Below the pieces are notes generated by a model, which saw only the letters and a program-made list of their open reading frames with translations, ran no database searches and was not told the origin of the DNA. 51,618 bases of DNA from positions 1 to 51,618 of the forward strand of contig CALFNG010000529.1 in NCBI GenBank assembly GCA_937902985.1. The letters are read 5' to 3'. The stretch comes from an uncultured Myxococcales bacterium (GTDB lineage: Bacteria; Myxococcota_A; Polyangia; Polyangiales; Polyangiaceae). Shown here one piece after another: positions 1 to 43,656 of this stretch (within the stretch, counting starts at the first letter, position 1; each line of letters starts with the position of its first letter). Made by a program: the position numbers and the translations under genes.

Positions 1-1461
1 GGGCAGCTCGTTCGCGGCCGCCGGCGCCGCCTCGGGCGGCTCGGACGAAGACCCGGACGCAGAGGCGGGCAGTGCCTCGGCCGAGGCAGATGACGCCGGC
101 GGGATCGGGGTTGGAACGGAGACCGCAGTCGGGCCGCCTGACCCCATCGCCGTCTTCGGTGCCCGAGGTGTCTCGCGCCCCCCGGCCCAGCGGATCAATC
201 CAACGGCTCCCACCAGCAGGACGGCCAGCGCAATCATCCACGGTCGAACGCGACCGCGCTGCGCAGACGGGAGAGATTCGGCGCTCGCCGTGGAGGCTGC
301 CGACGCCATCGCCGGCGGCCGCGTCGAGTTCGATATGATCGACGACGCGACGCTGGCAATGCTCGACGGCGTCGATTCGGGAGAGAGCGGCCTGTAGCCC
401 AGGCGCGGCAACGTCGGCGCGGTAGGCGCGGGGGGCGGCATGCTCAAGCTCTTGGGCTTGGGCTCGCGACGCGCGATGAGCGCGCGCACTGTCTCGCGCT
501 GCTTGACGATCTCGTCGCCGAGGACATCGTCGAGATAGGCCGCGACGTCCTTGTGCGTCGCCGCTTCGTCGCCTTCGTGCACGGACCGCTCGAGCGCATC
601 GGCGAAGAGGGCGGCCGTCGCGAAGCGACGCGTTCGCTCCCGATCGAGCGCGCGTTCGAGGACCTCTTCGACCCCCCGCGGCACCGAGGGCTCCGCGTCT
701 TTCAGCGGCGGGATCGGCTCGTGGAGCACCTTGTTGAGCGTGTCGGCCTCGCCGTCGCCCTTGAAGAGTCGGCGCCCTTCGAGCGCCTCCCAGAAGACGA
801 CGCCGGCAGCGAACACGTCAGCCCGGCGGTCGATGTCCTTCGCGGAGCGCGCCTGCTCGGGCGCCATGTACGCGAGCTTGCCCTTGAGCTGACCGGCGCG
901 GGTCGTCGAGAGCTTGCTCGTTGCCCTCGCCACGCCGAAATCGGTGAGCCGCGCGCTGCCGTCGATGCCGATGAGGATGTTCTGCGGCGAGACGTCGCGG
1001 TGCACGATGCCGAGCGGCTTGCCGTCATCGTCGGCCAGCTCGTGGGCGGCGTGCAACCCCGCGAGCACGTCGCCGACGATGCGCGCCGCGATGCGCACGG
1101 GCATGCGCCGCCCGGTCTGCACCGTGCGCGCAACGAGGTTCGCGAAGGTGTCGCCCTCCACGTACTCCATGACGATGTAGTAGCCTTGGTCACTCGTGCC
1201 GATCTCGAGAATGGGCACGACGTTCGGGTGATGAATCCGGGCCGCCAGCCGCGCCTCTTCGAGGAACATCTCGATGAACTCGGGCTCGCGTGCCAGGTGC
1301 GGATGCAGCCGCTTGATCCCGACGAAGCGCTGGAAACCGCCGGCACCGGAGATGCGGCCGAGGAAGACGGTCGCCATTCCGCCGGTCGCGAGCTCCGCCA
1401 CCAGCTCGAAGCGGTCGAGCCATCGGGCCTCGCCTTCGACGGGAACGAGCGTGATGGTCAG
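1..1461 (-). CDS. Ser/Thr protein kinase, membrane-anchored, C-terminus cut by window edge
   Basis: Eukaryotic-type (Hanks) protein kinase that would phosphorylate Ser/Thr on unknown partners at the inner membrane. My reading of the minus strand shows the Gly-rich loop LATGGMATVFLG, the ATP-site lysine in VGIKRLHPHLA, the catalytic loop HRDVSPQN (a form common in myxobacterial kinases), DFGVAR and MAPEQAR. One hydrophobic helix follows (WMIALAVLLVGAVGLI, at 192-240), then a Pro/Ala/Ser-rich tail that runs off the left edge, so the C-terminus is missing. The start is odd: an in-frame TGA lies at 1494-1492 and no ATG, GTG or TTG lies between it and the kinase fold. A CTG at 1461 has a good Shine-Dalgarno GGGAG eight bases upstream and is the start used here; an indel is the alternative. 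It lies 78 bases after the TPR/PEGA-like gene on the same strand. The kinase call is firm; the start is not. Confidence 0.9.
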   Translation of the reverse strand, partial: MTITLVPVEGEARWLDRFELVAELATGGMATVFLGRISGAGGFQRFVGIKRLHPHLAREPEFIEMFLEEARLAARIHHPNVVPILEIGTSDQGYYIVMEYVEGDTFANLVARTVQTGRRMPVRIAARIVGDVLAGLHAAHELADDDGKPLGIVHRDVSPQNILIGIDGSARLTDFGVARATSKLSTTRAGQLKGKLAYMAPEQARSAKDIDRRADVFAAGVVFWEALEGRRLFKGDGEADTLNKVLHEPIPPLKDAEPSVPRGVEEVLERALDRERTRRFATAALFADALERSVHEGDEAATHKDVAAYLDDVLGDEIVKQRETVRALIARREPKPKSLSMPPPAPTAPTLPRLGYRPLSPESTPSSIASVASSIISNSTRPPAMASAASTASAESLPSAQRGRVRPWMIALAVLLVGAVGLIRWAGGRETPRAPKTAMGSGGPTAVSVPTPIPPASSASAEALPASASGSSSEPPEAAPAAANELP

Positions 1462-1539
1462 GGCTTCGGCTCCCGCGCGAAGGTCATGGCCTCAGTATGA
1501 CATCAGCGGCCCGTGCGGCCCGGCGATCGAATCGGGCCC

Positions 1540-2625
1540 TCAAAAGCTCCCCGCGAGGCCCACCTGGCCGATCCCCACGAGCGGCGCCAAGCGGACCCCG
1601 ACCGTGGGACGGGCGGGCGACCATTGCGTGAAGAAGACCCCCACGACGGCCGTGACCACGGCGAGCCCGCTCGTCACGCCGATCAGGGCGTTGGTCCGGT
1701 TCTGGTTCGAGATGCCCGGCTGCGCCGTCGGGCAGCTCTCGATCGTTGCAAACCCTTTGCACTGCGTCCTGACAACGTTCCGTCCGGGGTTGTTCTCCGT
1801 ATCGATACCCGACCACACCATCACGCCGAGGCTGACACCCGTGAGCGCAGCGCCCGCGATAAATACAGCCGGACCAAACGGTTTTGATGTCGGCGGCGGC
1901 TCCGCGGGTGCGGGCGGGGTAGGTGCGGGGGTCGCTATCTGGGGAGCCGGAGAGGGCGTCACGGGGGCTGGCGGCGGCGGCGAGGGCGGGTCGAGGCGAA
2001 TCGTCTGGCTCCCGCCCTCGGTAGCCTGCACCGTGACCCGTTCGTTGCGTCCGTCGGACCAGCTGACGACGAGCTCGTGCAGGCCGGGGGTCATGAAGAG
2101 ATCGGACTCCTTGACCCGCTCGGACGAGACGATCTTCTCGTCGATCGCCACGCTGTACTCGGCCGCGGATGCGAGCATCACCTCATGAACGTGGGGTCGC
2201 GCATCCGCCACGGTGTCGTTCGCGACCTTGCTCGTCGAGGGGTCAGTCGGATATCGCCGCAGGGCGATGGCGGCGAGCGTGGCCGCGCGCGCCAGCTCGC
2301 TCGCGTCGCGTCGCGCGCGGATCGCGCTCCGGATCTCGGCCGGGTTGGGTGCCGCGAAGAACGCGTTCTCGAAGTGGCTCGCGGCCTCGTCGTACTGCTT
2401 GTCGACATACGCACGGTATCCGAGGTCGTGCTCCCGGGCGGCGAACTGGATCTGATCGGCGCCAGGGGTCGACGGCGCCGCCGCTGGAGCCGGGGCGTCG
2501 GACGGTGGCGCATCGGCGCGCGCAACGCATGCCCACGCGACGGTGAGGACCACCGACGAGAACCCGACGAGAACGGCAGGCCACAACGGATGCGGACCCG
2601 GCCAGCGCAAGGTCGTCGACCGCAT
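1540..2625 (-). CDS. TPR/PEGA-like membrane protein of unknown function
   Basis: 361 residues. The N-terminus has a hydrophobic signal/anchor (about residues 14-33) ending in ARAD. A short TPR-like segment follows (GYRAYVDKQYDEAASHFENA), then a PEGA-like beta segment (AEYSVAIDEKIV ... MTPGLHELVVSW), a long Pro-rich linker, and two hydrophobic helices near the C-terminus (FGPAVFIAGAALTGVSLGVMV and TNALIGVTSGLAVVTAVVGVFF). This layout is frequent in myxobacterial genomes beside Ser/Thr kinases; the function is not known. Its ATG overlaps the stop of the upstream E2 gene (TGATG), so translation is probably coupled to the dehydrogenase operon, and the kinase gene follows downstream. It likely sits in the cell envelope with the TPR region outside the cytoplasm, but topology is inference. 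Confidence 0.75.
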   Translation of the reverse strand: MRSTTLRWPGPHPLWPAVLVGFSSVVLTVAWACVARADAPPSDAPAPAAAPSTPGADQIQFAAREHDLGYRAYVDKQYDEAASHFENAFFAAPNPAEIRSAIRARRDASELARAATLAAIALRRYPTDPSTSKVANDTVADARPHVHEVMLASAAEYSVAIDEKIVSSERVKESDLFMTPGLHELVVSWSDGRNERVTVQATEGGSQTIRLDPPSPPPPAPVTPSPAPQIATPAPTPPAPAEPPPTSKPFGPAVFIAGAALTGVSLGVMVWSGIDTENNPGRNVVRTQCKGFATIESCPTAQPGISNQNRTNALIGVTSGLAVVTAVVGVFFTQWSPARPTVGVRLAPLVGIGQVGLAGSF

Positions 2626-3974
2626 CAGACCATCTCGAGGAGGAGCGTCTCGGGTGCCTCGAGGTACGCGATGACGTCGAGAGCGAACGCTGCGCCCACG
2701 TGACCGTCGACGATCCGGTGGTCGAACGACAGCGACAAGAGCATCACGTCGCCGATCGCGATCTGCCCGTCGCGAACCACGGGCCGGGTCTTCATCTGAT
2801 GAACACCGAGAATCGCCACCTCCGGGAAGTTGATGATCGGCGTCGCGAAGAGGCCCCCCTTGGCGCCGAGCGAAGTGATCGTGAACGTGGAGCCCGAGAG
2901 GTCTTCGGGGCGGGCCTTCCCTGCCCGGGCCTCGCTCGAGAGGCGCTCGATGTCGCGCGCGATCTCGAGGAGGCCCTTTCTGTCTGCGTCGCGGACGACG
3001 GGAACGACCAGGCCTGCGTCGGTGGCCGTGGCGATCCCGATATGGAAATACTTACGGAAGACGATCTCGTTGTGGGTCTCGTCGAGCGTCGTGTTCAAGA
3101 TCGGGTGCTTCTTCAGCGCCGCGACCACGGCCTTCACCACGAACGGCAAGAAGGTCAGCGCCGCGCCACGCGCCTCGGCCGCTCCCTTGAGGCGCGCGCG
3201 CAGCGCCTTGAGCGCCGTCGCGTCGCATTCGTCGACGAACGTGTAGTGCGCCGCCGTGTGCGTCGACAGCGTCATCTTCTGGGCGATCTTCCGGCGAATC
3301 CCCACCATCGGCACGCGCTCCTCCGACCGCGAAGCGTCACCCGCCGCGGCGCCACCCGTCGTGGACGTGGACGTGGACGTGGTGGTCGACGGTTCGGTCC
3401 CGCGCGCGTCCGCGCCGGGCGCCGGCAGCGTGAACCCCTCGACGTCCGTCTTCGTGACTCGCCCGTCGGGGCCGCTCGGCGGGATGTTCCTCAGGTCGAT
3501 GCTGAGATCCCGCGCCAGCTTGCGCGTGGCCGGCGTCGCCAGGGGCCGGTCGTTGTAGTACGCACGGCCCGCGCTCTTCATCCCGGGAAGGGTCTCGCGC
3601 AGATCGCCGACCGCCGTCGCAGCCGGGCCGTCGTCGACGCTCCTTGCAATCGCACTGGCGATCGCGATGTCCTTGCTGCCGTTCGCTTCGGAGGCGCGGG
3701 CGTGGCTCGGCGGGGCCAAGGGGACGCCCGCGCCTTCGAGCTCGAAGACCACGAGCACGCCGTGGACCGCCACGATCTCCCCGACACGCCCGCGCGTCTC
3801 GAGCACCACCCCGGCCTTCGGCGCGGTGATGGTCACGGTCGCCTTGTCGGTCATCACTTCGACGACCGGCTGGTCCTCGGTCACGGCATCGCCTGGCCTC
3901 ACGAGCCAGCTGACGATCTCGCCCTCGGCGATGCCCTCGCCGATGTCCGGCAGCTTGAACTCCCACCTTGCCAT
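2625..3974 (-). CDS. E2 dihydrolipoyl acyltransferase of an alpha-keto-acid dehydrogenase (probably branched-chain)
   Basis: 449 residues with the full E2 layout: one N-terminal lipoyl domain (lipoyl-lysine K44 in VMTDKA), a peripheral-subunit-binding domain (ATPATRKLARDLSIDLRNI ... GPDGRVTKTDV), flexible linkers, and the CoA-acyltransferase domain ending in SFDHRIVDG (catalytic His about 419). It transfers the acyl group from E1 to CoA via lipoamide. A Thr/Ser linker near residues 200-206 is encoded by three GTGGAC hexamers on the plus strand (3361-3378). It lies 9 bases after the E1beta gene and overlaps the next gene, consistent with one operon. No E3 (lipoamide dehydrogenase) gene is present. 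The choice of branched-chain rather than pyruvate substrate is inferred from the overall look of E1/E2 and the separate alpha and beta subunits. Confidence 0.93.
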   Translation of the reverse strand: MARWEFKLPDIGEGIAEGEIVSWLVRPGDAVTEDQPVVEVMTDKATVTITAPKAGVVLETRGRVGEIVAVHGVLVVFELEGAGVPLAPPSHARASEANGSKDIAIASAIARSVDDGPAATAVGDLRETLPGMKSAGRAYYNDRPLATPATRKLARDLSIDLRNIPPSGPDGRVTKTDVEGFTLPAPGADARGTEPSTTTSTSTSTTGGAAAGDASRSEERVPMVGIRRKIAQKMTLSTHTAAHYTFVDECDATALKALRARLKGAAEARGAALTFLPFVVKAVVAALKKHPILNTTLDETHNEIVFRKYFHIGIATATDAGLVVPVVRDADRKGLLEIARDIERLSSEARAGKARPEDLSGSTFTITSLGAKGGLFATPIINFPEVAILGVHQMKTRPVVRDGQIAIGDVMLLSLSFDHRIVDGHVGAAFALDVIAYLEAPETLLLEMV

Positions 3975-16470: not shown

Positions 16471-17133
16471 AGAGGACGCGTTGAGCCGCGCGAGGGAGCG
16501 CTCGAGTTCAGCGCGCGCGTCGAGGACGATCGCCGGGTCGACGGGGTCGCCGAGGGTGACGTCGACGCGGCTGAAGGGCCACGCGATCGCGAATCGGTCC
16601 CACGCGCGATCGAGCACGATGCCCCTTCGGACCGCTCCCGTCATCGGAACGAGCACGGCCTTCGCCGCACGGGCGGCGACGACAGCGCCGCCCTTGACCA
16701 CCCCGCGCGGGCCGCGTGGGCCGTCGACCGCAAAAGCAGCGTCGGCTCCTTCGCGGCGCATCGCGCGAACGACAGCCGCAAGGCCGCGCGCGCCACCGCG
16801 CGAGCTCGACCCGCGGACGACGCGGAACCCCTGGACGGCGAGCGCGCGCGCCTGCATCGAGCCGTCGTGTGAGAGGCTCACGAGCACCACCGTGCGCCGC
16901 CTCCGTTGCCACGCGAGGAGCGGCCATTGCGTCCCATGCCAGAAGGCCAGCACCCAGGGTCGGTCAGCCACGGCCTCGAGCCCGGGGTGCGCCACGACGC
17001 GCACCCGCAGCGTCGCCAGCCACAGGCGAGCGACCAACCCGAGGATCACGCCCGCCAGCGTCACCAGCAGCGAATGACCAAGGGGACGCAGGCGCTCGCG
17101 CGCCCCTCCCGCCCGTGTCACCGCTGCCGTCAC
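16468..17133 (-). CDS. DUF374-type lysophospholipid acyltransferase family protein
   Basis: 221 residues. It shows the DUF374/LPLAT pattern: one N-terminal hydrophobic segment (LLVTLAGVILGLVARLWLA), WVLAFWHGTQWPLL, LVSLSHDGSMQA, RGSSSRGGARGL and AVDGPRGPRGVVKGG. Members are inner-membrane acyltransferases linked to lipid A or phospholipid acylation; the substrate here is unknown. The GTG start at 17133 overlaps the stop of the giant TPR gene (GTGA), so translation is coupled to it. This is the only firm genomic partner of that giant protein. Confidence 0.85.
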   Translation of the reverse strand: MTAAVTRAGGARERLRPLGHSLLVTLAGVILGLVARLWLATLRVRVVAHPGLEAVADRPWVLAFWHGTQWPLLAWQRRRRTVVLVSLSHDGSMQARALAVQGFRVVRGSSSRGGARGLAAVVRAMRREGADAAFAVDGPRGPRGVVKGGAVVAARAAKAVLVPMTGAVRRGIVLDRAWDRFAIAWPFSRVDVTLGDPVDPAIVLDARAELERSLARLNASS

Positions 17134-20100
17134 CCCTTGAGCTCGGACAGCTTCGTCCGCGCGAGGGCCAGCGAAGGCTCGTTCTCGATCGCCCGCTCGA
17201 ACATTTGCACGGCCTTCGCCTTGTCGCCCTGCTTCGCGCTGATCTCGCCGAGGTAATAGAACACCTCGCCCTTCGAGATCCCGACGTTCGGTTCGAGTCG
17301 CTGCAGGAGCAGCGCGCGGAACGTCTTCTGCGCGCGATCGAGGTCGTTGGTCTCGAACGCCAGAACGCCCAGGTCTTTGAGGACCGTGACCGAGCCGGGA
17401 TCGATCTTGAAGGCCATGTCGAGCTGAATCAACGCTACGTCTTTATCGCCGAGCTGAGCGAGCGCGCTCGCGAGCTTGTGGTGGTACAGCGCCAGCTCCT
17501 TCGTGCGGCGGCTGCCGAACGAAGCGATGACCCGCTCGAGCACCTGCGCGGCCTCGCGCCCGCGCTGCGCTGCGTTGTAGGCGTCGCACAGGGCCAGGAG
17601 CAATTCGCGGTCGTGCGGGATGAGCTGCGCCGCGCGCTCGAGGACGGGGATCGCGTCGGCCGGCGAGCGCCGGTGCACGATGTGGATCTCGGCGGCCGCC
17701 TTCAAGAGCTTCACCTGTTCGAGGATCGGAGCGGGGACGCTCGGCGGTGGCGGTACGGAGCCGCCCGGCGGGATGCTCGCGAGGGTACGCCGCATGGGCG
17801 GCAGCCCTTCGGGCGCGATGCTCGCCATGCTCCGTCGAGGCGGGGGGAGCTCGGGCGCCACCTTGAGATCGGGGTTGGCGGCCGCGATGAGATCGGCGTC
17901 GCCCACGAGCAGGTCAGCGAGCTCGGCCCATTTCTCCGCGCGCTCCCAGCGTTGCCGGAGCATCGCGCGCAGCCCTGCGTTGTTGGGCTCGAACTTGAGC
18001 CCGCGCTGCAATGCCTCTTCGACGCCGTCCGCGTCGCCGTTGTTCTCGCGCGCCTCGGCGAGCTTGAGCGCCCAGAGCACGCCTTCGGCGGGGCTCGCGA
18101 GGTCGACGAGCTTCGCCAGCGCCGTCGACGCCCGCTCCCAATCCTCGCGCTGCTGGGCGATGCGGGCGACCGCCTCGAGCGCCCCGCGGTGGTCCGGATC
18201 ACGAACGAGCACGTCTTCGTACGCCTCCTGCGCGGCGGTCGCGTCGCCGAGGCGTCCCTCGTGCACCTCGCCGAGCCTCACTAGGAGGGCCAGCTCGGAG
18301 GCGATGTCGCTTCGGTCGCGCGCGGCGTCGAGCTGCGCCTTGAGGAGCTCGGCGAGCTCGGCATCGCGGCCCATCGCCTCGTAGAGCTGCGACAGGGTGA
18401 GCACGGCCTCCGCCTGCGTCGGATCCTCGTCGAGGATCGCGCGCAGCGTCTCGATGGCGTCGTCTTGCGATTTGAAGCGATCGCGCTGGAGCTTCGCCAG
18501 CTCGATCCGCAGGCTCGCTCGTTCGGTTTGCGCCGTGGCAACGTCGATCAGGCGCATGAGCAGCCGGGCGAGATCGCGATCGCGACCGGCTTGACTGTAG
18601 AGCGAGCGCAACGCCGTCGCCGCGGGCGCGTCCGTGGGCTCCGAGTCGAGTATCTCTTCGTAGAGCGACGTGGCTCGGGTGGCTTCCTGCAGCTTCTCGA
18701 CGAGGACCCGCGCCGCCTCGTGCCTCAGCCTGAGCGCAGCTTCGCCGTCGGAGCCGATCTCCGCGCGGAAGAGCAGGAGCTTCACCACCTCGGCGTCGTC
18801 GCCCGCGGCGGCCCGGAGCTTCGTGAGCTCTTCGAGCGCCCAGAGGTCGGCCTCGTCTTCGGCGATGAGATCGCGCAGCGTCGCTTCGGCGAGGTCGCGG
18901 TCCCCGACGGGCCCTTCGGCGAGCCCCTTCGCGTCGCGGAGGAGCTCGCGCTTCGTCGCGATGTCGGTCTCCAGGCGCGCGCGCGTTCGCAGGGTGTGCA
19001 CGAGCTCGCGCTCGCGCCCGGGCTCGCGTCGCAGATCCTCGAGCGCGCGAAGGACGTCGAGGTTCTCGGGATCGATCGACAGAGCCCGGGCGTACGCGTC
19101 TTCGGCGCGTCGCTTGTCGGCGAGCTTGTCTCGCCTCCAGCCGGCGAGGCGGATAAAGAGCTCCATCCGCGTCACGGCCGGCAAGTCCTGCTCGGCGTCG
19201 AGCGCTCCCGAGAGGGTCTCGGCCGCCTCTCGCCACCCGTCGTTCACGGCGGCCAGCCGTTCGAGCTCGGTGAGCGAGTCCTCTTCGGACGGGTCTTCGG
19301 CGACCGCTGCCTCGACGGCTCGCTGGGCACGCGGCCGATCCCCGACCATCTCTTCGAGTACCCGCGCGAGATCGAGCCGCGCGCGGATGCGGTCGCCCGC
19401 GGACTGCGCACGCGCGACGCGACGCTCGTAGAGGTTCGCGAGCTCCTCGGTGCGACCGAGCATGCGATGAACGAACTCGAGGGCTTCGAAGGCGTCCTCG
19501 AAGAGCGCGCCGTCGTCGAGGAGACCCTCGAGCGCCTCGCGGCTCGCGGTGTGATCGGGGACCCGCTCGAGCGCCTGCCGCAAGGTCGACAGCCCCTGTG
19601 CGCGCTCCCCGAACTCGTGAATCTGCAGCACCGCGAGACGGTTCAAGAGGTCCGCCTGCACCCTCGCGTCCGCCTCGACGGCGATGCGCCTCTCGAGGAC
19701 GTCGGCCAGACCGCGAGTGTCACGAAGCCTGCCGTGAAGCCGATCGAGTGCCCGAAGCACGGCGGGATCGTCCCCCATTCGCTCCACGGCTGCCGTGTAG
19801 GCCTTCGCGCCCCGGGGCGCGTCATCGAGCTTTTCTTCGCTGACCCGCCCCAGGCGCACGAACAGGTCCGCAGCGACGTTCGCGTCGAAGATCCCGACCG
19901 CACGCTCTTGCAGCGCGTCGGCGTATCGCCTCCACCCGTCGGCGCCGATTCGCTCGGCGAGCCGCTCGATCTCTCCGTGAAGTGATGCGTCTTGCGGCTC
20001 TTCGGACAGCGCGCGAATGAGCGCGGACTCGGCTTGCTCGGCGTCGCCAAGGGCCGTCTCGGACACCTCGGCGAGCGCGCGCAGCGTGCGCGCCCGGTCC

Positions 20101-23100
20101 AGAGCTTCGGTCTGCGAGCGCAGCCGGAGCTCGAGAGCGGACGCCAGCTCCTGGTGCCGGCCAGCCGCGCGGAGCACGGGCTCGAGCGCGTCGGCCGCGT
20201 CGCCGCGGAGCTCGTCGCGAGACTCGCCGATGCTCCGAATGGCCGCGACCGACTCTTCGTCGAACCCGCCGTCGAGGACCCCTCGATATGCTTCGAGGGC
20301 CGACTGAGCGTCTTGCAGCTGCACCGCATAGAGCGACGCGATTCGCTTTTGCAGCGCGCGTCGCGCCCCGTCGTCGGGGGCGGCGCCGGCCTGGAGCTTG
20401 AGATTGTCGAGAAGCTCGGGCCAGAGACGCTCGTGCGTGTAAAGGGAGTCCAGCCGCCGCAGGACCTCGTCGTGACCTTCGGCCACCCCCTGGACGCCGA
20501 GGGCCTGCACGAGGCACTCGATCGCCTCGCGATGGTCCGACAGGTCGGTCACGTACCGGCTGGACGCGGAGACGAGCAGCTTGAACTTGAGCTCGTCGTC
20601 GCCCTCGCCGCAAAGCTCGACGCGCCGGCGGCAAAGGTCGACGAGGCGTGAGGCGTCGCTCCGGTGTTCGTAGAGGTCGATGAGGTAGTCGATCGTCAGC
20701 GTGCTTTCGGGCTCGAGTTCGAGCGCCCGCTCGTAAGCCTCGATGGCTCCGAGCGCGTCGTCGAGCATGTCGCGCCGGGCCTCGCCGATGCGCCGCCACG
20801 TGGATGCGCGGGTCTCGTCGTCCGGGACGAGATCGACCTTCTTCACGAGCACCCGCACGAGGGCGCCCCAGTCGCTCAGCAGCGTCGCCAGCGCATCCAT
20901 CTCTTCGAGCGGCTCGAACTCGGTCTCGTCGAGCGAGAAGAGGCGCTCCCACGCCAGGAGGGCGCGGCGCGGATCGTCGCGGCGCTTGTCGTGCAGCTGG
21001 GCGAGCGCCGAGAGCAGCTCGCGCTTGGTCAGGCCGTCGGTCTTTTCGATGCCGGTCTCGTACGCGGCGGCGAGGTCGTCCCAGCGCTTCGTGGTCGCGG
21101 CGAGACGATCGAGCTCGCCGCGGGCGTCACCGTCTTCGGGATCGAGGATCCACGCTTGCCGGATGGCCTCGAACGCGCGGCGGCGATCGCCCCCGCGCTT
21201 CTCCCAGAGGTTCGCGTTCTCGCGCAGGATCGTGACCCGCTCCGGGACCTCGGCAGCAAGGAGCAGCCGCTGCTCGTTGATCGAGATGAGATGACGCCAG
21301 TCGTCGGCCCGCTCGTAGATCGGGCGCAAGATGTCGACCACGCGCGCCTTGTGCTCCGGCGCGTGGAGCAGCTCTTCGAGCGTCGCCACCGCCTCGGCGC
21401 CGGGGCCATCGCCCGAAGCGGTCACGAGTTCGACGACCGTCTGGAGCTCGTCGATGCCGGTCTGCGGCTCCCCCAGCTTCTGGACCAGGAGCTTCGCGAG
21501 CTGCATGCGGTGCGCGGCTTCGTCTTCGGGGAGCGCGCTCTGCTCGGCGCGGCGCCGGGTCAGCTCGGCCAGGTCGCGCCAGCGCTCGCCGCGTGCGTAG
21601 AGCCGGGACAGCGCTTCGAGCGCGTGCATGTCCCCTTCGTCGACGTCGAGCGCGGCGCGGTAGGTCGCGACGGCGCCGGCGTCGTCGGAGAGCTCGGTCT
21701 CTTGCAACAGCGCGATCGTGTGAAGAGCCCCGAGGCGCTGCGCCGGGTCGTGCTTGTAATCGAGCGCGTCGCGATAGAGCTTCACGCGGTCAGCCGGCCG
21801 GCCCGACTCATGCAGGAGGCGATCGATGGCCGCGAAGCTCCCGCCGGACGTCTCGGGAGCGAAAGCGTACGCGCGCCGGTAAAACTGGAGGGACCGCTCG
21901 ACGTCCTTCTGGGCCTCGAAGAGCTCACCGGTGCGCTTCGCCAGACGCGCCGTCGCGAGCTCGTCGGTGGCGATCTTCTCGAGCTCGCCCGCGTAGATCT
22001 CTGCGAGCCGCGCTTCGGAGTTGGCGACCCGGGCCAGGCGTTCGAGCTCCGCCCAGGTGCCTTCGTCGGTCGCGTCTTCGGCGAGGAGCAACGCCGTCGT
22101 CTCCAGCGCCGCGCGATAGTCCTCGGCCTGCTCTTCGTGGAGCTTCGACAGCCGTCGCAAGAGGAGCCGCCGCTCGTCGGGGTCCTGGCTGACGTCGAGG
22201 CGGGCCTCGATCGTCGCCATGACGCGGCGCCAGTCGAGACGCGCGAGGTACACCGGCTCGAGCATCGCCGCGGCCCGCGCCGCATGCTCGCGCTGCCCCA
22301 TGAGCGCTTCGAGCGAGGCGACCGACTGCGGGTGCCTCGGGTCAATCGAGAGTGCCGCCGCATACTCGTCGAACGCTCGGTCCACCTCGCCGGTTCGCTT
22401 CTCGAGGAGCTTGCCGAGCGCGTGGTGAAGGGCGGCCCGGCGCTCGTTCGACGTGCCGGGCGCGACGATCTGGCGCTCGTAGAGGCCGATGAGGTCCTCC
22501 CAGCGTTCGGCTTGCGCGTAGAGGCGTTCGAGCGCGTCGATCGCCTTCGCGTCGAGAGACATCTCGACGATCTGTTCGTAGACGGAGATCGCCGCCCGGG
22601 TGTCGCCGAGCTTCTCGTCGCAGAGCTGCGCTTGCTTGAAGAGCAGCTGCCTCCGCTCCCCGTCGGTGTCGGACGCCTCGGCTCGCCGTTTGACGATATC
22701 GAGCAGCGCCGGATGGTCGCCCGTTTCTTCGTAGAGCGCTTCGAGCGCGACGAGCGCGCGCTTGTCGTCGCCGCGTACGTCGAGCGCCCTAGCGTAGTAC
22801 TCCTTCGCGAGCGCCGTGTTGCCGAGGGGAGCGTGCGCGATCTGGGCGATGCGCAACGTCACTTCGAGCTGCAGATCGCCGTCGACGATCTCACCGACCG
22901 CGGCGCGGAGGAGCTCGACGAGGTCCTCGTGCTTTCCCGTGGTGGCCGTGAGACGCTCGGCCCTGTCGATCCAGAGCCGGAGCTCCGGATCGGCCACGGC
23001 CTCGCGCAGCCCTCGCGCCGCGTACGAGAAGGCGCGCGTGGGGTCCCTCAGCGGGCCCTCGGCTACGCGCACGGCTTGGGCGATCGTCGCCAGCTTCGAC

Positions 23101-26100
23101 GCCGTCGAATCGGCGTGCTCGGCCTCGATCTCGAGGACTCTGAGGAGCTTCTCGTGGAGGCCGTCGGACTCGTAGAGCGGGTGCAGGATCTCGGCCGCCT
23201 CGAGGCGCGCGCCGTCGTCGTCGAGCATCGCCTCCAGGGCGCTACGGCACCGCTCGTGAGACGGATCGATCCCGAGCGCCTGACGGTACGCTTCCATCGC
23301 CCCGGCCACGTCGCCGAGCTTGACTTGCCGGACCTCGCCCAGGCGCGCGAGGATGTGCAGCTTGTCGCCGGGCGTCTCGGCCAGCGCGAGGTCCGCCTCG
23401 AGGGTGTCGGCGAGGTCCTGCCAGCGATCGGCGAGCTGGTAGAGCATCGCGAGCGCCGCGAGCGACGTGCGATCCGCACCGAAGTCCTCGATCACCGCGC
23501 GATAGGCCGTGATGGCTCCGTCGATCTCGGTCAGGCGCTCGGTGAGCGTCCGCGCGATGCGCACCATGAAGGTCCGGCGCGTCTCGCGATCGTCGGTCTG
23601 TCGCTCCCGGACGCGCAGTATCCAGATGAGCTCCGTCCAGCTCTGCGTGCTCTCGTACAGGCCATCCAGTGCCGAGAGCGCGTGCGGGTCGCTCGGGTCG
23701 TCTTCGAGCCTGGCCCGCCACGCGTCGATGGCGCCGCGCGAATCGTCGAGCACGTTCTCGCAGAGCTCGCCCAGCCGCCCGAGCAGCTCGCGGCGCGCGT
23801 CGGGGCTCTCTTCGAGCTTCACCTCAATGCGCAGGATGTCGCGGAGCTTCTGGCTGTCGCCGCGGACGTAGATGCGCTCGAGCGCGCGGCACGGGGGCAG
23901 CGCGATCGATGCGTCGTCCGGAGCGAGCTGCAAGACCTGCCGGTAGACAGCCTCGGCGCGGGCGGCGTCGTTCAGCTCGCTCTCGCAGAGTCGCGCGACA
24001 TCCATGAGGATGTCGGAGCGTGGCACCGGAGCCGTCGCGGCGGCCGCCGTCGTGGTGAGCACGCCGGCCGCGCGCTCGTGGGCGCCGAGCCGTCGCGCGA
24101 TCTCGAGCATGCGCTCGCGAGCGCGAGCGTCCTCGGGATCGAGGGGCAGCAGGCGCGCGAACGCCTCGAGGGCGCCAGCGTCGTCGCGCAGGCGTTCGTC
24201 GCGGAGGTCGGCCACGCGGCGGAGCAGGTCGCGCCGCTCGTCGGCGTGCGTCGCGAACTCGAGGTGGATCTCGAGCACGCGAACGAGCTCGGGCACTTCG
24301 TCGCGGGTGGCGTACACGGCCTCGAGGATGATCGCCGCACGCGCGCGCAGCTCCGGTACGTCGAGGATCTTCTCGACGAGATGGCGGGCTTGCGTCGCGC
24401 TCGGGCGCTCTCGCAGCACCTGCTCGAGGTGCGCGAGCGCGCCCGAAGCGTCGCCGAGCTGGGTGAAGAGGAGCGTTCCGAGGCGCTGGTCGAGATCGAG
24501 GCGCTCGTCGCCCACGGCGCCCTGGCGACGGCGCTCGAGTAGCTGCGCGAGGCGGTCCCAGCGGTGCTCGGCCGCGTAGAGGCTATCGAGAGAACGCACG
24601 GCCTGCTCGTGAACCGGATCGAGCTCGAGGATCCTCTCGTAGTAGGCGATCGCCCTCGGGCGGTCCCCGGTGATCTCTTCGGCGACGAGAGCCACTTCGG
24701 CGAGGAGCTCCGCTCTCCGCACGGGATCCGGGTTCGCCTCGACGACACGCTCGTAGAGGCCGCCCAGCTCGTTCCACTCTTCGCGCGTGGTCAGGATCTG
24801 TTTGAGACGCTGGAAGGCGCGCTCGTTGCCCGGCTGCAGCGCGAGCATCCGCTCGAAGTACGGGGTGGCGCGCTCGACGTCGCCGAGCTTCTCGTCGAAC
24901 AGCGTCGATGCGCGCTCGGACAGATCGAGCTCGACGCGTCCGGGCAGTCCGGTCGGTCCCGTCGGCGCCACGGCCGCCACGAGCCCGCCGGCGAAGTCCT
25001 GGGCCCTGCCCGTCTCGGCGGAGAGCGCGGACAGTCGATCCCACAGCGGCAGGTCCGTCGGGAACTCGCCCGCCGCGCGCGCGATGACGTCGAACGCGCC
25101 GTTCGCGTCGCTCAGCTTAGCCGCATGCACGTCAGCGAGGCGCCCGTAGAGCGTCAAGCGGTCGTCCCGCGCGGCCGTGGTCGCGATCAGCACTTCGAGC
25201 ACGTCAGCCTGACGCTGCGCCGCGCCCGTCTCGCCGTAGGCGCGCTCGAGGATCGCCGCCGCTCGCGCGCGCGTCTCGCCGATGACGAGGAGCTGCTCGA
25301 CCACCTCGACCGCGCGCGGGTCGTTGGGCGAGAGCTCGAGCGCCCGTTCGCTCGCGCGGAGCGCGTCGACATACTTGTGCAGAGGCTCGACGTAGAGCTT
25401 CGCGAGCTCGATCTCCCGAGCCGCCCGGTCCATGCCCTCGCGCTGGTCGCGATCGAGCGCGATGACTTCGGCCGCGCCGTTGGCGTCGCCCTGCGCTCGC
25501 AAGAGTCGCGCGAGGGAGCGGAGCGCGCTCCCGTGGTGAGGCACGAGCTCGAGCATCCGCCGGTAGAGGCGAACCGCGTTGTCGGGCGCGCCGAACGCCT
25601 CTTCTTCGAGGAGCGCCCACTCGCCGAGCAAGTCGAGCTTGAGGGGGGTGTTCGTGCGTCGGATCCGGAGGTCGAAGAGCCAGCGCAAGTCGTCGCGGCG
25701 ATCGGCCTCGCGCAGAACGCGATCGAGCGTCTGCACCGCGAGATCGTCGCTCTCGTCTTCTTCGACGAGCAGCCGATAGATCTGCACGGCCTCGTCGACG
25801 CGGCCCATGTCGCGCGCATAGACCTCGGCGAGCTTCGAGCGCAGGGCGCGCTGCGCTTCGCGCCGGCCGATCTCGTTGCCCTCGGCCTCTCTCTTCTTCT
25901 TGCTCTTCTTTCCCCCGGACCGCGTGCCATCGAGCGCCTCGAGCCGGGCGACGAGAGCTTCCACGAACCCCGGCCACTCCTCCGCGGTGCGCGTTGCCGC
26001 CTCGAAGGTCGCGAGGGCGCCTTCGCGGCCGGGCGCGAGCTCGTACGCCTTGCGCGCCCAGGCGAACGCCGCCGCCCGATCCTGCAGGCGCAGACCCGAG

Positions 26101-28598
26101 ACCTGCACGAGCTTGTCGAGGAGCCTGAGCTTGTCCTCGGCGTCGCGAGCGTCGCCCAGGAGGATCTCGTAGAGCGCCGGCAATCGCGCCCACTTCTCGT
26201 CTTTCTCGTAGAGAGGTGCCAGCGCGGCGGCCGCGCGCGCATCGTCGGGGCGCACGCTGAGTACGCGCTCGTACGACCGGAAGGCCCGGTCCGGAGCGTT
26301 CAGCTTTTCGGCGTAGACGGTCGCGCTCCGGAAGCTGAGATCGATCTTCAGCTCGGGCTCGGTCGCCTTGTCGGCAGCGCCCGAGAGGACCTCGACCAGC
26401 CCCTCCCAGTCCTTGCTCTCCGCATAGAGCTCCGTCAGACCATCGTAGTCGCGAATCGCGACGTAGCTGTCGCGCAGCACGCGCAGGGCCTTGGCGTGCC
26501 CCGGCTGCAACGTCAGCACGCGGCGCCAGGCGCTCATCGCCTTGGTGGGATCGCGCAGGCGATCGGAGTAAATCCCCCCGAGCTTGAGGAGGATCACGAG
26601 GCGCGCGGCGGCGTCGGTCGCGAGCGCCACGCGCCGCTCGAGCACGTCGGCGACCGTTGCGAAGTCCTTGTCGCGCTCGGCCTGCTTCTCGAGCGCGTCG
26701 AGCGCCGCGGCCGACGAGGGCTCTTCGTCGAGCACGCGCCGGTGCCAGGCCACCGCCTGGGCGCCCATATCGAGGCGCTCCGCGGCGAGCTTCGCCATTT
26801 CCATCCAGATCTCGCGCCGCTCGGCGCCCTCAGAGAGGGCGTCGGCTTCCTGCCCGAGGAGCGCGTAGAGCGGCTTGTAGGCCCGACGCTTCGCGTAGAG
26901 CTCCTTCAGGCGCTCGACGGCTTCGCGATCGGCCGGATCGACGGCGTGTAGCTTCTCGAAGGCCTCGACCGCGTTCTGTACGTTGGAAAATTGATCGAGC
27001 CAGCGACGCGCGATCATCCTCCACAGCTCGGCCTTCACCCCCGGCTCTACCTCGAGGTCGGCCTGGCGTCCCTGCATCGTCAGGAGATCGCGCCACCGCT
27101 GGAGGGACTCGTAGACCCGCGCCAGCTCGCGCACGCTCGGGAGATCGGTCGGATCGAGCTGCACGATCTGCGTGAGCACGGTCACGAGCGCCGAGTCGCT
27201 CTTCACTTCGTCGCGGTAGACGACGGCGATGCCGCGCAGCACCGGCAGGCGCCCGGGCGCGTCGTCGGCCGCGAGCTTGTCGAGCTCCTGGCGCAGCAAG
27301 TCGGTGAGGGCGTTCCAGCTCGCCGTCTGCCGGTAGAGGCGCTTCAGCGCGTCGCGCGCGTCCTTGTTGCCGGGATCCTGGCGCAACACCGCGCGCCACT
27401 GCTCGATCGCCTTCTGGGCGTTCGCGCCCTCTTCGGCCAGCTTCGCGATCTCGGCGACGATCGCTCCCCGCTCGACCCCGTCGGGCGTCGCTCGTTGCGC
27501 GTCGCCGAGGATGGTCGCCAGGCGCGTGTTCTCGCCGCGCGTCGAGCACCAGTCGCGGAAGAACGAGAGCATCGCCGCGTTGGCCGGGTCGAGCTTGCGG
27601 AGCCGCTCGAACCACGCCTCGGCGGCGTCGGGCCGGTTGCGCTTGCGCCAGTGGATCATCGCGACCTGGAGCGCCGCGCCCGACTCTTCGTCTTTGCCCC
27701 GCAGGGCGCCGGCCGAGAGTTGACCCTCGTAGAGGGCCACGAGGTGGTCCCACGTCTCGCGCGACGTGAAATAGTCGGAGAGAAAGCCCGCGGCCTCGGC
27801 GTTGCTCGGCGCCACGTCGAGGACGCGCTCGTAAGCGGCCGCGGCGCGGTCCGCCGACTTCAACTTCTTGGCGAAGGTCCGCGCGAGCCGCAGCCAGCCG
27901 GCGATCTTCTCGTCTTTCTGCGTGGCCTCGCTCGCGAATCGCTCGAGCGCCTCGGCCACGTCGTCCCACCGCCCGTCGTCGCGCAGCATGCGCTCGAGGA
28001 GCATCTCGGCTCGCCGGTTCTTCGGGTCGAGCTGCAACGCCTCGCGCAGGAGCGCGACGATGCGATCGATGAGCTCTTTCTCGCCGTCGATGCGCCCGTA
28101 GCGGAACACCACTTCGGCGGCGCTGACGAGTAGCGAGCTCCGGAACGCAGCGTCGCCTGCGCCCTGCGCTTCCTGCACGTAGCGCTCGGAAAGCTCGCGC
28201 CATTTTGCGCGCTTCGCGTTGGTGCGGTCGAGGGCGTCGGCCGCGTCGTTGTCGCCCGGCGTGTTCGCGAGGAGCCGCTCGTAGGCCGAACGCGCCGCCG
28301 CGTCGTCCATCAGCTCTTCGTCGAGGACGCGCGCAAGCTCGGCGAGGAGCGCGTGCTCGCGCGCCGTGCCGCCCCCGCGAGAAGCCGCGACGAGCTCGAT
28401 CTCGAGCAGCTTCTGAACCGCCTCGTACTCGCGCCGCCCTTCATAGACGCGGCGAGCGGACTCGAGGAGCTTTGCGAGCTCGTCTGTGCCCATACCCGGT
28501 TCGTCTTCGACCTCCATGCGGAGCGTCTGCCACGTAGGGGCGCTGTCCGGATCGTCTTGCAGCAGTCCGAGGGCGCTCTTGATCGTCTTCGCGCTCAT
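17130..28598 (-). CDS. Giant TPR-repeat protein, 3,822 residues
   Basis: One uninterrupted frame of 11.5 kb. The ATG at 28598 has AGGTG six bases upstream. No signal peptide or membrane helix is visible, so it should be cytoplasmic. Nearly the whole length is degenerate TPR-like helix pairs in units I estimate at about 105 residues (roughly 35 units), each with the pattern LA-x-hydrophobic-x-D-x-L-x-D-x-x-x-A-x-x-A-Y-x-x-x-L-x-x-D-P, then an A-L-x-x-L-Y stretch, W-x-x-L and L-x-x-R/E. Breaks in the pattern are a Lys-rich insertion near residues 890-905 (GGKKSKKKREAEG) and a Pro-rich linker near 3575-3625 (PELPPPRRSMASIAPEG), followed by more canonical TPRs to the end. No catalytic domain was recognised. 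It would form a very long superhelix suited to a scaffold. The next gene is an acyltransferase (4-base overlap); plsC diverges upstream. Confidence 0.92.
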   Translation of the reverse strand: MSAKTIKSALGLLQDDPDSAPTWQTLRMEVEDEPGMGTDELAKLLESARRVYEGRREYEAVQKLLEIELVAASRGGGTAREHALLAELARVLDEELMDDAAARSAYERLLANTPGDNDAADALDRTNAKRAKWRELSERYVQEAQGAGDAAFRSSLLVSAAEVVFRYGRIDGEKELIDRIVALLREALQLDPKNRRAEMLLERMLRDDGRWDDVAEALERFASEATQKDEKIAGWLRLARTFAKKLKSADRAAAAYERVLDVAPSNAEAAGFLSDYFTSRETWDHLVALYEGQLSAGALRGKDEESGAALQVAMIHWRKRNRPDAAEAWFERLRKLDPANAAMLSFFRDWCSTRGENTRLATILGDAQRATPDGVERGAIVAEIAKLAEEGANAQKAIEQWRAVLRQDPGNKDARDALKRLYRQTASWNALTDLLRQELDKLAADDAPGRLPVLRGIAVVYRDEVKSDSALVTVLTQIVQLDPTDLPSVRELARVYESLQRWRDLLTMQGRQADLEVEPGVKAELWRMIARRWLDQFSNVQNAVEAFEKLHAVDPADREAVERLKELYAKRRAYKPLYALLGQEADALSEGAERREIWMEMAKLAAERLDMGAQAVAWHRRVLDEEPSSAAALDALEKQAERDKDFATVADVLERRVALATDAAARLVILLKLGGIYSDRLRDPTKAMSAWRRVLTLQPGHAKALRVLRDSYVAIRDYDGLTELYAESKDWEGLVEVLSGAADKATEPELKIDLSFRSATVYAEKLNAPDRAFRSYERVLSVRPDDARAAAALAPLYEKDEKWARLPALYEILLGDARDAEDKLRLLDKLVQVSGLRLQDRAAAFAWARKAYELAPGREGALATFEAATRTAEEWPGFVEALVARLEALDGTRSGGKKSKKKREAEGNEIGRREAQRALRSKLAEVYARDMGRVDEAVQIYRLLVEEDESDDLAVQTLDRVLREADRRDDLRWLFDLRIRRTNTPLKLDLLGEWALLEEEAFGAPDNAVRLYRRMLELVPHHGSALRSLARLLRAQGDANGAAEVIALDRDQREGMDRAAREIELAKLYVEPLHKYVDALRASERALELSPNDPRAVEVVEQLLVIGETRARAAAILERAYGETGAAQRQADVLEVLIATTAARDDRLTLYGRLADVHAAKLSDANGAFDVIARAAGEFPTDLPLWDRLSALSAETGRAQDFAGGLVAAVAPTGPTGLPGRVELDLSERASTLFDEKLGDVERATPYFERMLALQPGNERAFQRLKQILTTREEWNELGGLYERVVEANPDPVRRAELLAEVALVAEEITGDRPRAIAYYERILELDPVHEQAVRSLDSLYAAEHRWDRLAQLLERRRQGAVGDERLDLDQRLGTLLFTQLGDASGALAHLEQVLRERPSATQARHLVEKILDVPELRARAAIILEAVYATRDEVPELVRVLEIHLEFATHADERRDLLRRVADLRDERLRDDAGALEAFARLLPLDPEDARARERMLEIARRLGAHERAAGVLTTTAAAATAPVPRSDILMDVARLCESELNDAARAEAVYRQVLQLAPDDASIALPPCRALERIYVRGDSQKLRDILRIEVKLEESPDARRELLGRLGELCENVLDDSRGAIDAWRARLEDDPSDPHALSALDGLYESTQSWTELIWILRVRERQTDDRETRRTFMVRIARTLTERLTEIDGAITAYRAVIEDFGADRTSLAALAMLYQLADRWQDLADTLEADLALAETPGDKLHILARLGEVRQVKLGDVAGAMEAYRQALGIDPSHERCRSALEAMLDDDGARLEAAEILHPLYESDGLHEKLLRVLEIEAEHADSTASKLATIAQAVRVAEGPLRDPTRAFSYAARGLREAVADPELRLWIDRAERLTATTGKHEDLVELLRAAVGEIVDGDLQLEVTLRIAQIAHAPLGNTALAKEYYARALDVRGDDKRALVALEALYEETGDHPALLDIVKRRAEASDTDGERRQLLFKQAQLCDEKLGDTRAAISVYEQIVEMSLDAKAIDALERLYAQAERWEDLIGLYERQIVAPGTSNERRAALHHALGKLLEKRTGEVDRAFDEYAAALSIDPRHPQSVASLEALMGQREHAARAAAMLEPVYLARLDWRRVMATIEARLDVSQDPDERRLLLRRLSKLHEEQAEDYRAALETTALLLAEDATDEGTWAELERLARVANSEARLAEIYAGELEKIATDELATARLAKRTGELFEAQKDVERSLQFYRRAYAFAPETSGGSFAAIDRLLHESGRPADRVKLYRDALDYKHDPAQRLGALHTIALLQETELSDDAGAVATYRAALDVDEGDMHALEALSRLYARGERWRDLAELTRRRAEQSALPEDEAAHRMQLAKLLVQKLGEPQTGIDELQTVVELVTASGDGPGAEAVATLEELLHAPEHKARVVDILRPIYERADDWRHLISINEQRLLLAAEVPERVTILRENANLWEKRGGDRRRAFEAIRQAWILDPEDGDARGELDRLAATTKRWDDLAAAYETGIEKTDGLTKRELLSALAQLHDKRRDDPRRALLAWERLFSLDETEFEPLEEMDALATLLSDWGALVRVLVKKVDLVPDDETRASTWRRIGEARRDMLDDALGAIEAYERALELEPESTLTIDYLIDLYEHRSDASRLVDLCRRRVELCGEGDDELKFKLLVSASSRYVTDLSDHREAIECLVQALGVQGVAEGHDEVLRRLDSLYTHERLWPELLDNLKLQAGAAPDDGARRALQKRIASLYAVQLQDAQSALEAYRGVLDGGFDEESVAAIRSIGESRDELRGDAADALEPVLRAAGRHQELASALELRLRSQTEALDRARTLRALAEVSETALGDAEQAESALIRALSEEPQDASLHGEIERLAERIGADGWRRYADALQERAVGIFDANVAADLFVRLGRVSEEKLDDAPRGAKAYTAAVERMGDDPAVLRALDRLHGRLRDTRGLADVLERRIAVEADARVQADLLNRLAVLQIHEFGERAQGLSTLRQALERVPDHTASREALEGLLDDGALFEDAFEALEFVHRMLGRTEELANLYERRVARAQSAGDRIRARLDLARVLEEMVGDRPRAQRAVEAAVAEDPSEEDSLTELERLAAVNDGWREAAETLSGALDAEQDLPAVTRMELFIRLAGWRRDKLADKRRAEDAYARALSIDPENLDVLRALEDLRREPGRERELVHTLRTRARLETDIATKRELLRDAKGLAEGPVGDRDLAEATLRDLIAEDEADLWALEELTKLRAAAGDDAEVVKLLLFRAEIGSDGEAALRLRHEAARVLVEKLQEATRATSLYEEILDSEPTDAPAATALRSLYSQAGRDRDLARLLMRLIDVATAQTERASLRIELAKLQRDRFKSQDDAIETLRAILDEDPTQAEAVLTLSQLYEAMGRDAELAELLKAQLDAARDRSDIASELALLVRLGEVHEGRLGDATAAQEAYEDVLVRDPDHRGALEAVARIAQQREDWERASTALAKLVDLASPAEGVLWALKLAEARENNGDADGVEEALQRGLKFEPNNAGLRAMLRQRWERAEKWAELADLLVGDADLIAAANPDLKVAPELPPPRRSMASIAPEGLPPMRRTLASIPPGGSVPPPPSVPAPILEQVKLLKAAAEIHIVHRRSPADAIPVLERAAQLIPHDRELLLALCDAYNAAQRGREAAQVLERVIASFGSRRTKELALYHHKLASALAQLGDKDVALIQLDMAFKIDPGSVTVLKDLGVLAFETNDLDRAQKTFRALLLQRLEPNVGISKGEVFYYLGEISAKQGDKAKAVQMFERAIENEPSLALARTKLSELKG

Positions 28599-40935: not shown

Positions 40936-42330
<1,395 letters not shown>

Positions 42331-42351
42331 TCGCTTCTGGGGGCGATCTGA

Positions 42352-43656
42352 ATGACCACCACCACTTCCTTCTTCGTCTTTGCTTCGTTCACGTGTCTCT
42401 CGGTCGGCGTCGCGGTGCCCGCGTTCGCGCAGGTCAGCGACTCCCAGCGCGCCGGCGCGCGGGATCTCTTCAAGGCCGGCGACCAGCTCCAGCGCGCGGG
42501 CCAGTTCGCCGACGCGCTCGACAAGTTCCAGCGCGCGCAGCAGGTCTTCGCCGCGCCGACCAACGTGCTGCGAATCGCCGAGTGCGACGCGGCGCTCGGC
42601 CGGCTCGTCGAGTCGGCGGAGGCGTATCGCGAAGTGCTTCGCACGCCGTTGCCGGCCGGAGCGCCGCCGGCGTTCCAGGCCGCCGTCGATCAGGCGAAGG
42701 CCGAGCTCTCGCAGGTCGAGCCACGGGTCCCGAGGCTGACGGTGCAGGTCCTGCCGTCGCGCGTACAGAACCCGCAGATGCAGATCGACGGTCAGGGCGT
42801 CCCCGCCGCGCTCATCGGCGAGCCGATGCCCCTCGATCCGGGCGTTCACAAGCTGGCCGTGATCGCGCCGGGCTACGCGAGCACCGAGCAGTCCGTCGAG
42901 ATCAAGGAGCGCGACACGAAGACGGTGGCCATCGCGCTCAACGCCATTCCCGGCGTCACGTACGCGCCGGCTACCGTGCCGGTCACGGGCGCGGTGGCCG
43001 CGCCCACGCCCACGGGCGAGACGCCTCCTCCGCCGCCGGCCATCGGGCCGGTCGACGCGGGTCCGCCGCCGAAGCGATCGAGCGCCGGGTTGCTCATGGG
43101 CGCGCACCTCGGCTACCAGGGCGTCTCGGGACGCGTGCCCACGCCAGGCTCCGGGTTCGTGAGTCCGGGCGAGGTGGGGGGGGGCGGCGTGGCCTTCGGC
43201 CTCGACGGAGGGCTTCGCTTCGGTCGGCAGTGGTACATCGGCCTGACGCTGAACCGAGCGAACTTCAGCAACAGCAACGCGCTCAACGGCGCGGTGGCCG
43301 ACGCGACCTCCAACACGACGCTCCTGGCCCTGGTCGGCGCGTTCGTCGCGAACCCCGACAAGGTGAGCTTTTACGGCGAACTCGGGCTGGGAGAGCGGTG
43401 GTTCGACGTCCGCGAGACCGGGACCAGTGGCGGCGTCGTCGACAGCAAGCTGTTCAACGCCGGCGAGTTCGCTCTCGGCCTCGGGATCTGGATCCCCGCC
43501 GGGCGCTCTTTCAGGTTCCTCCCGAAGATCTCCTTCGGATTCGACTCGTTCAGCACGAGCGACGCGACCGGCTCGTCGAGCGGTTCGTCGAGCTCGAGTA
43601 CGATTGCGACGTTCACGATGCTCAGCCTGGTCGGCCTCTACAATCTCGATTTCTGA
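42352..43656 (+). CDS. TPR/PEGA-like protein with C-terminal outer-membrane barrel
   Basis: 434 residues. Signal peptide ending AFAQ (about residue 26), then a TPR-like region (AGDQLQRAGQFADALDKFQRAQQVF), a PEGA-like beta domain (QIDGQGVPAALIGEPMPLDPGVHKLAVIAPGY), a Pro-rich linker, and from about residue 240 a beta-barrel-like region of alternating strands (GGLRFGRQWYIGLTLNRANF, VSFYGELGLGERWF), ending in phenylalanine (LYNLDF) as outer-membrane proteins do. A poly-Ser stretch lies near residues 400-412. It is 21 bases after the kinase gene and surely in one operon. It could be a partner or target of the kinase system across the envelope; that is inference. Confidence 0.8.
   Translation: MTTTTSFFVFASFTCLSVGVAVPAFAQVSDSQRAGARDLFKAGDQLQRAGQFADALDKFQRAQQVFAAPTNVLRIAECDAALGRLVESAEAYREVLRTPLPAGAPPAFQAAVDQAKAELSQVEPRVPRLTVQVLPSRVQNPQMQIDGQGVPAALIGEPMPLDPGVHKLAVIAPGYASTEQSVEIKERDTKTVAIALNAIPGVTYAPATVPVTGAVAAPTPTGETPPPPPAIGPVDAGPPPKRSSAGLLMGAHLGYQGVSGRVPTPGSGFVSPGEVGGGGVAFGLDGGLRFGRQWYIGLTLNRANFSNSNALNGAVADATSNTTLLALVGAFVANPDKVSFYGELGLGERWFDVRETGTSGGVVDSKLFNAGEFALGLGIWIPAGRSFRFLPKISFGFDSFSTSDATGSSSGSSSSSTIATFTMLSLVGLYNLDF

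Follow-up and report, generated by a model that had tools for sequence, protein, structure and literature searches.

The window (the whole stretch of 51,618 nucleotides analysed here) carries two pairs of adjacent genes, each consisting of a Hanks-type kinase and a predicted exported protein with TPR-like and PEGA-like domains, for which we use the family name FAM. The initial annotation of this DNA had described both pairs, one at 1–2625 in which the TPR/PEGA-like gene precedes the kinase and one at 40936–43656 in which the kinase precedes it by 21 bases, and both are real. In the first pair, on the minus strand, FAM 1 (P0002, 1540–2625) is followed by kinase 1 (P0001, 1–1401) and overlaps by 1 base a gene identified by a Pfam scan as a 2-oxoacid dehydrogenase E2 component (2625–3974, minus strand). 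The second pair, on the plus strand, comprises kinase 2 (40936–42330) and FAM 2 (P0006, 42352–43656), and the next gene, at 43779, encodes a glycosyltransferase; this gene and the E2 gene are the only window neighbours of the pairs that were scanned with Pfam. Elsewhere in the window lies a very long minus-strand frame (17130–28598; 3822 residues), which matches TPR_16 close to its end.

Both kinases exceed the curated cut-off of the Pfam Pkinase family (PF00069, 31.7 bits), kinase 1 with 120 bits (1.7e-34) and kinase 2 with 143 bits (1.1e-41), and HRD and DFG motifs are visible in both translations, which are 34% identical to each other over 276 residues. In each the kinase domain is followed by a transmembrane (TM) helix and a Pro/Ala/Ser-rich tail. 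The tail of kinase 2 is 100 residues long and ends in the peptide NNPADPGY (42304–42327), a candidate docking peptide for which there are no binding data; the C-terminus of kinase 1 is lost, as the contig ends (base 1) before its frame does. The start of kinase 1 is uncertain because GTG 1401, its first in-frame ATG, GTG or TTG codon, falls within the kinase domain, and the frame is open to 1491 without any such codon ahead of the domain. Either an unusual start codon or a sequence error may be responsible. Several relatives of kinase 1 begin upstream of the kinase domain. Genes were called with our own codon-usage caller, which trims some starts (viz. kinase 2 at 40969).

In FAM 1 a signal peptide was recognised by eye, and an AlphaFold model predicts a TPR-like domain (2200–2460) and a PEGA-like beta domain (1993–2187); two predicted helices (1795–1872 and 1630–1725), taken as TM1 and TM2, enclose a Cys-containing loop, and the C-terminal hairpin ends in Phe. 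FAM 2 likewise has a signal peptide by eye and modelled TPR-like (42439–42729) and PEGA-like beta (42733–42936) domains, followed by a Pro-rich linker and a C-terminal region. The barrel that the initial annotation had placed in this protein depends on a weak Pfam OMP_b-brl match (0.0027) and is uncertain; the C-terminal half is unresolved in the model (pLDDT under 50 in 239–308 and 339–434).

Pair 1 is a conserved FAM–kinase pair in the rarer FAM-first order, inside a conserved block. Only the 11 best other-genome loci of P0002 relatives were fetched, and in 11/11 a kinase lies directly downstream; the E2 gene lies upstream in six, and the other five end there or have another gene. FAM 1 relatives were found in 45 of the 58 genomes searched (own genome included), and two kinases that are complete in the fetched loci end in SNPYR. 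Beside two FAM 1 relatives (L202 and L203) there is an opposite-direction gene with a lipoprotein-like start and a C..YD.SLL stretch; a similar gene lies beside an own-genome kinase ending in NNPYR (L046), with no FAM nearby.

The FAM family and its linkage to kinases

P0002 and P0006 are members of one diverse family, whose layout consists of a signal peptide, a TPR or Cys-helix domain, a PEGA-like beta domain and a membrane end. No BLASTP similarity was found between the two proteins; compared as profiles they align over 293 columns with a probability of 99.3 (E 2.5e-20), a match favoured by the three bridging members that profile A6 contains. This match, together with the shared layout in the AlphaFold models (five TPR-like helices and a beta domain of six strands in P0006 and five in P0002, mostly at pLDDT 86–98), upholds the earlier remark that their domain layouts are alike. 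Both match FAM profile A1 over most of its length (P0006 at 6.5e-60, positions 6–265 of 341; P0002 at 1.8e-57, positions 7–340), and both are among the 39 members from which that profile was built. Pfam TPR matches are sub-threshold in both proteins, and the Pfam PEGA cut-off (PF08308, 20.8) is not met by P0006 (13.6 bits) or by P0002, which has no match; some other FAM members pass it. Among the structural neighbours of the FAM helical domain are TPR domains whose ligands are C-terminal peptides (viz. Tah1, HOP and FKBP38), a likeness of limited weight since TPR folds give similar Z values with many unrelated proteins.

Several variations within the family may be recorded. A Cys-rich helical segment takes the place of the TPR domain in some members (L081, L034, L075, L104, L042, L033, L020 and L155), and in some kinase frames (L012:9382–10809, C92 and C170) there is also a PEGA-like or FAM-like region, so that both sorts of domain are naturally fused. 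Most FAM proteins end in Phe or Trp, with a Phe end in 15/15 rows of alignment A6 (including 1540–2625 and L200–L210). A terminal Phe resembles the end signal of outer-membrane proteins; the FAM 1-type Phe end coexists with two predicted TM-like helices.

We have searched the whole own genome (8.3 Mb in 563 contigs, with at least 160 kinase-domain matches) with the FAM profile, and 35 of its 57 FAM genes are no more than 1.5 kb away from a kinase domain on a list of 150, where 7.9% would be expected by area (P about 1e-24). In a relative assembled as one contig (G022), the same profile yields 30 kinase-linked FAM genes out of 82 against a circular-shift mean of 4.6; the shifts included near-zero ones, so that their maxima (20 and 34) mean little. 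The members used for the profile came from fetched loci mostly around kinases or PEGA genes. A check with Pfam PEGA, which owes nothing to this profile, places 8/16 PEGA genes near a kinase, or 6/14 without the two that are fused to kinase frames. Chance adjacency is therefore rejected by all three counts. A general attraction of TPR genes to kinases is likewise rejected, as only 4 of 60 other TPR genes in the own genome (from 98 TPR_16 rows, same-gene pieces merged and FAM genes removed) lie near the listed kinase domains. Sigma-54 activators, the intended negative control, are themselves within 1.5 kb of kinases in 12 of 50 cases in the own genome (50 of 57 rows, seven weak ones dropped). 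The kinase precedes FAM in 26/35 linked pairs of the own genome and in 24/30 of G022, which is also the order of pair 2. No listed kinase lies inside 1.5 kb of the remaining 22/57 own-genome FAM genes, several of which are located at contig ends.

These counts retain 57 of 84 profile rows in the own genome (13 second pieces of one gene and 14 weak partial matches were dropped) and 82 of 87 in G022 (five second pieces dropped). The kinase lists hold 150 of 160 matches in the own genome and 150 of 153 in G022, and the kinase and FAM searches in the two genomes scored only 150 candidates of 181 to 396; because both are incomplete, the linkage counts are lower bounds.

FAM matches at E 1e-15 occur in 38/38 genomes searched as relatives and in 96/140 genomes drawn across the phylum, the own genome being included in both sets. 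Among 80 loci from other genomes, which include Sorangium, Polyangium, Minicystis and Labilithrix and of which two yielded no called FAM gene, 49/79 FAM genes adjoin a kinase, in 45 cases with the kinase first and on one strand; 26/79 have no adjacent kinase although a gene is present upstream. Four of the 49 adjacent kinases had already been seen, leaving 45 new ones. The initial annotation had suggested a recurring kinase–envelope protein module and had proposed counting such neighbours against chance; that count has now been made, and the suggestion holds well beyond chance in the own genome, in G022 and across further genomes of the group.

The usual cassette order is kinase, FAM and often a lipoprotein, although neither pair of the window has the lipoprotein gene. 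Of the genes that immediately follow FAM in the same orientation, 16/34 in the own genome have a lipobox versus 99/1403 distant genes, and 21/40 versus 18/119 in the other-genome loci, where four near-identical Polyangium loci (L251, L253, L254 and L272) were counted singly. The motif C..[ILVF].G, which was written after examples had been seen, is present at the lipid-bearing Cys of 5/16 (own genome) and 16/21 (other loci) of these lipoproteins, versus 3/99 and 2/18. Many of those viewed have an Asp-rich stretch followed by differing domains; of ten scanned in Pfam, six gave no match at 0.01 and the rest gave weak ones, which include a receptor ligand-binding region, a laminin-G-like fold and a beta-propeller type.

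Kinase C-terminal peptides and their co-variation with FAM

FAM-linked kinases share a plan of kinase domain, TM helix, Pro/Ala/Ser/Thr-rich linker and, often, a short C-terminal peptide. A hydrophobic TM-like stretch follows the kinase domain in 29/31 FAM-linked and 70/108 unlinked kinases of the own genome. In the 45 non-redundant kinases of the 80 other-genome loci, the last seven residues carry 1.5–2.8 bits each, as against only 0.16–0.62 at positions -9 to -40. The tails of the own genome, once seen, were sorted into five classes, viz. class I (hydrophobic, then (D/G/E)(R/Q) and one to three residues), class II (DP(L/F)...K), class III (NP(Y/F/W) or D(L/V)PY), class IV (DxG(Y/F/I), which includes window kinase 2) and class V (C-x-P...K..C(L/F), mostly beside FAM proteins with the Cys-rich helical segment in place of TPR).

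The FAM N-domain, rather than the kinase domain, predicts the tail class of the kinase. Of 31 pairs, 27 could be used (L115, L011 and L051 have a FAM called without its N-domain, and the kinase of L013 has no tail), and 22 of these are classed (no class for L023, L036, L116, L092 and L030). The nearest FAM N-domain belongs to the same tail class in 22/22 pairs and the nearest kinase domain in only 7/22, and the classed tails group by class when ordered on the FAM N-domain alone. The poor prediction by the kinase domain fits the earlier statement that the two window kinases are of different subgroups. P0002 itself is far from its nearest classed neighbour (0.88, class III), and its relative L200 is nearest to an unclassed FAM. 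Over the 27 pairs, tail and FAM distances are correlated (Mantel r 0.25, P 0.0004, and r 0.23, P 0.001 when the kinase domain is controlled for), a correlation which leans on class V (r 0.11, P 0.067 without it). In a class-free comparison, a second attempt added after this weakening, none of 20000 permutations gave tails as close as those of nearest FAM neighbours, both with all 27 pairs and with the 22 that remain without class V. Linker segments -36 to -29 and -44 to -37 do not correlate with FAM, while segment -52 to -45 does (r 0.17, P 0.027; 0.11, P 0.14 without class V). The first linker control (-20 to -13), into which the class V motif reaches, also correlated with FAM, and this disappears without class V (r 0.01, P 0.43).

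Class I, the only class tried on the other-genome loci, is found there in 25/45 new kinases by a strict pattern (missed by the other 20) and in 37/45 by a loose one, versus 5/108 and 7/108 of unlinked own-genome kinases; of five further kinases on these loci that are not beside FAM, one meets the strict and two the loose pattern. A tail of any class is present on 13/108 unlinked kinases. Among the class-tailed unlinked kinases that were inspected, L129, L024, L046, L107, L028 and L062 have no FAM in the fetched stretch; L015 and L118 have class III tails and the nearest FAM genes on their stretches, three and four genes off, are each most like class III members.

These data bear on whether kinase and FAM might merely have been duplicated together and kept linked for co-expression, with no contact between them and with the tail retained for another reason. 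Kinase and FAM distances are weakly correlated (r 0.15, P 0.04), most linked pairs are tandem, and kinases that are nearest neighbours by kinase domain also have similar tails (P 0.0014 with all pairs, 0.068 when class V is left out); shared descent therefore explains part of the tail pattern. Co-inheritance alone is nonetheless an unlikely account, given how much better tail class is predicted by FAM than by the kinase domain and given that the tail is retained both in reversed pairs and in divergent ones, of which L089, L055, L099 and L042 still agree in tail and FAM class.

It may also be considered that FAM is a substrate or output of the kinase, for instance via the loop between its TM helices, rather than its input. 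The two predicted helices would, on the topology inferred, place the Cys loop opposite the TPR domain, which speaks for such a role; against this, the export signal implies that most of FAM is away from the kinase domain, and the co-variation is with the kinase tip, for which reasons we consider a substrate role improbable. Short C-terminal motifs commonly serve as quality-control or sorting signals, and the tail could be one that is read by a general protease or assembly factor, the more so as FAM proteins themselves mostly have aromatic ends; that there are several distinct tail classes, that these track the FAM N-domain, and that the strict class I pattern is so rare in unlinked kinases make this explanation improbable. 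Finally, the notion that the conserved C-terminus merely reflects the needs of the following gene (its ribosome-binding site, or a start that overlaps the kinase gene), to which the many pairs that overlap by 4 bases or lie under 60 bases apart had given some ground, is largely rejected, since in the other-genome loci 11/14 non-tandem or wider-spaced pairs retain the loose end pattern (30/35 in close tandem), Shine-Dalgarno-like 5-mers occur in only 9/53 close tandem ends, and six Arg codons are used.

A proposed envelope input module and its relation to known systems

From the computed linkage, shared architecture, conserved tip and co-variation alone we infer, with a probability of roughly 0.6, that the tip of the kinase binds to the partner FAM, through which a signal from the envelope would reach the kinase. 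Each pair would then represent a single instance of a kinase input module that spans the envelope and is distributed among the myxobacteria of this group. By its sequence, the kinase combines a catalytic domain in the cytoplasm with a single TM helix and a long Pro/Ala/Ser/Thr linker, and the linker and tip are inferred to be periplasmic. FAM is predicted to be exported, to carry a TPR-like or Cys-helix domain and a PEGA-like beta domain, and to be anchored by two C-terminal TM helices or perhaps, in FAM 2, by an outer-membrane barrel. The tip may dock on the N-domain of the cognate FAM, as the co-variation suggests; FAM, often with the lipoprotein encoded next, may sense or relay a ligand or the state of the envelope; and FAM might cluster or release the kinase, so setting its autophosphorylation and cytoplasmic output. 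The suggestion in the initial annotation of a signal pair across the envelope thus gains indirect support, in that the FAM N-domain co-varies with a kinase peptide whose predicted position is beyond the inner membrane, and a lipoprotein gene is often next; the docking and the signalling themselves are inferred. A bolder extension, tentative and in our view possible rather than probable, is that dozens of parallel kinase circuits are kept apart by a peptide code, with five or more types of tip, each recognised by a separate class of periplasmic FAM N-domain, and with interchangeable lipoprotein sensors hooked to FAM via C..[ILVF].G.

We know of no general account of how myxobacterial eukaryote-like kinases receive their signals. 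The number of such kinases can be large (353 in Minicystis rosea, according to the part of the source available; PMC8436480), and the present results suggest a repeated sensor unit for membrane kinases whose inputs are unknown. A cassette of kinase, adaptor and lipoprotein with a matching tip would make the input side testable, as partners become predictable from sequence and a short peptide can be mutated or swapped. No description of the kinase–FAM module was found in the literature searched, mostly at abstract level; a 2008 paper on the myxobacterial kinome could describe part of it.

Among known systems, the PASTA kinases (PknB/Stk1) similarly combine a kinase domain, a TM helix and an extracytoplasmic input, and NF033483 is the best NCBIfam match of both window kinases. 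At 241 and 262 bits the matches fall short of the 450-bit cut-off, no PASTA domain was found in the Pfam scan (the tail of P0001 being cut off), and the window-type tail differs in being a low-complexity linker with a short end peptide. Carboxylate-clamp TPR domains (viz. those of HOP, CHIP, Tah1 and Sgt2) resemble FAM in their TPR fold, and they bind C-terminal peptides; the likeness is one of fold only, and these domains differ in being eukaryotic and cytosolic, with EEVD ligands. In the PpkA-TagQRST system of Pseudomonas, outer-membrane and periplasmic proteins activate a membrane kinase; this system is specific to the type VI secretion system (T6SS), and the available part of the source names no TPR/PEGA adaptor (PMC6082577). 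Membership of the T6SS threonine-phosphorylation pathway would show in T6SS, FHA and PppA genes next to the kinase; the two window neighbours scanned proved to be the E2 and glycosyltransferase genes.

The PpkA-RtkS pair of the Serratia T6SS is, by analogy and on that same partial source, the nearest studied parallel to the kinase–FAM pairs. RtkS, which is encoded near the genes of its pathway, is an exported partner that binds and stabilises the periplasmic part of a membrane Ser/Thr kinase (PMC6082577). The available text mentions no TPR for RtkS and sets the pair in a T6SS/FHA context (PMC6082577); a further difference is that in the kinase–FAM pairs it is the partner that carries the beta domain, with a short tip supplied by the kinase, and that such pairs number dozens per genome. 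PpkA and RtkS are absent from the VIA tables of structural neighbours, which does not exclude a likeness. In a Foldseek comparison the P0002 model matched chains B and D of 9k1u ('Rtks and Ppka complex') with E values of 2.1e-4 and 4.0e-4; we infer that the matched region of P0002 is its beta domain and, from their length (76–77), that the matched chains are probably the periplasmic part of PpkA.
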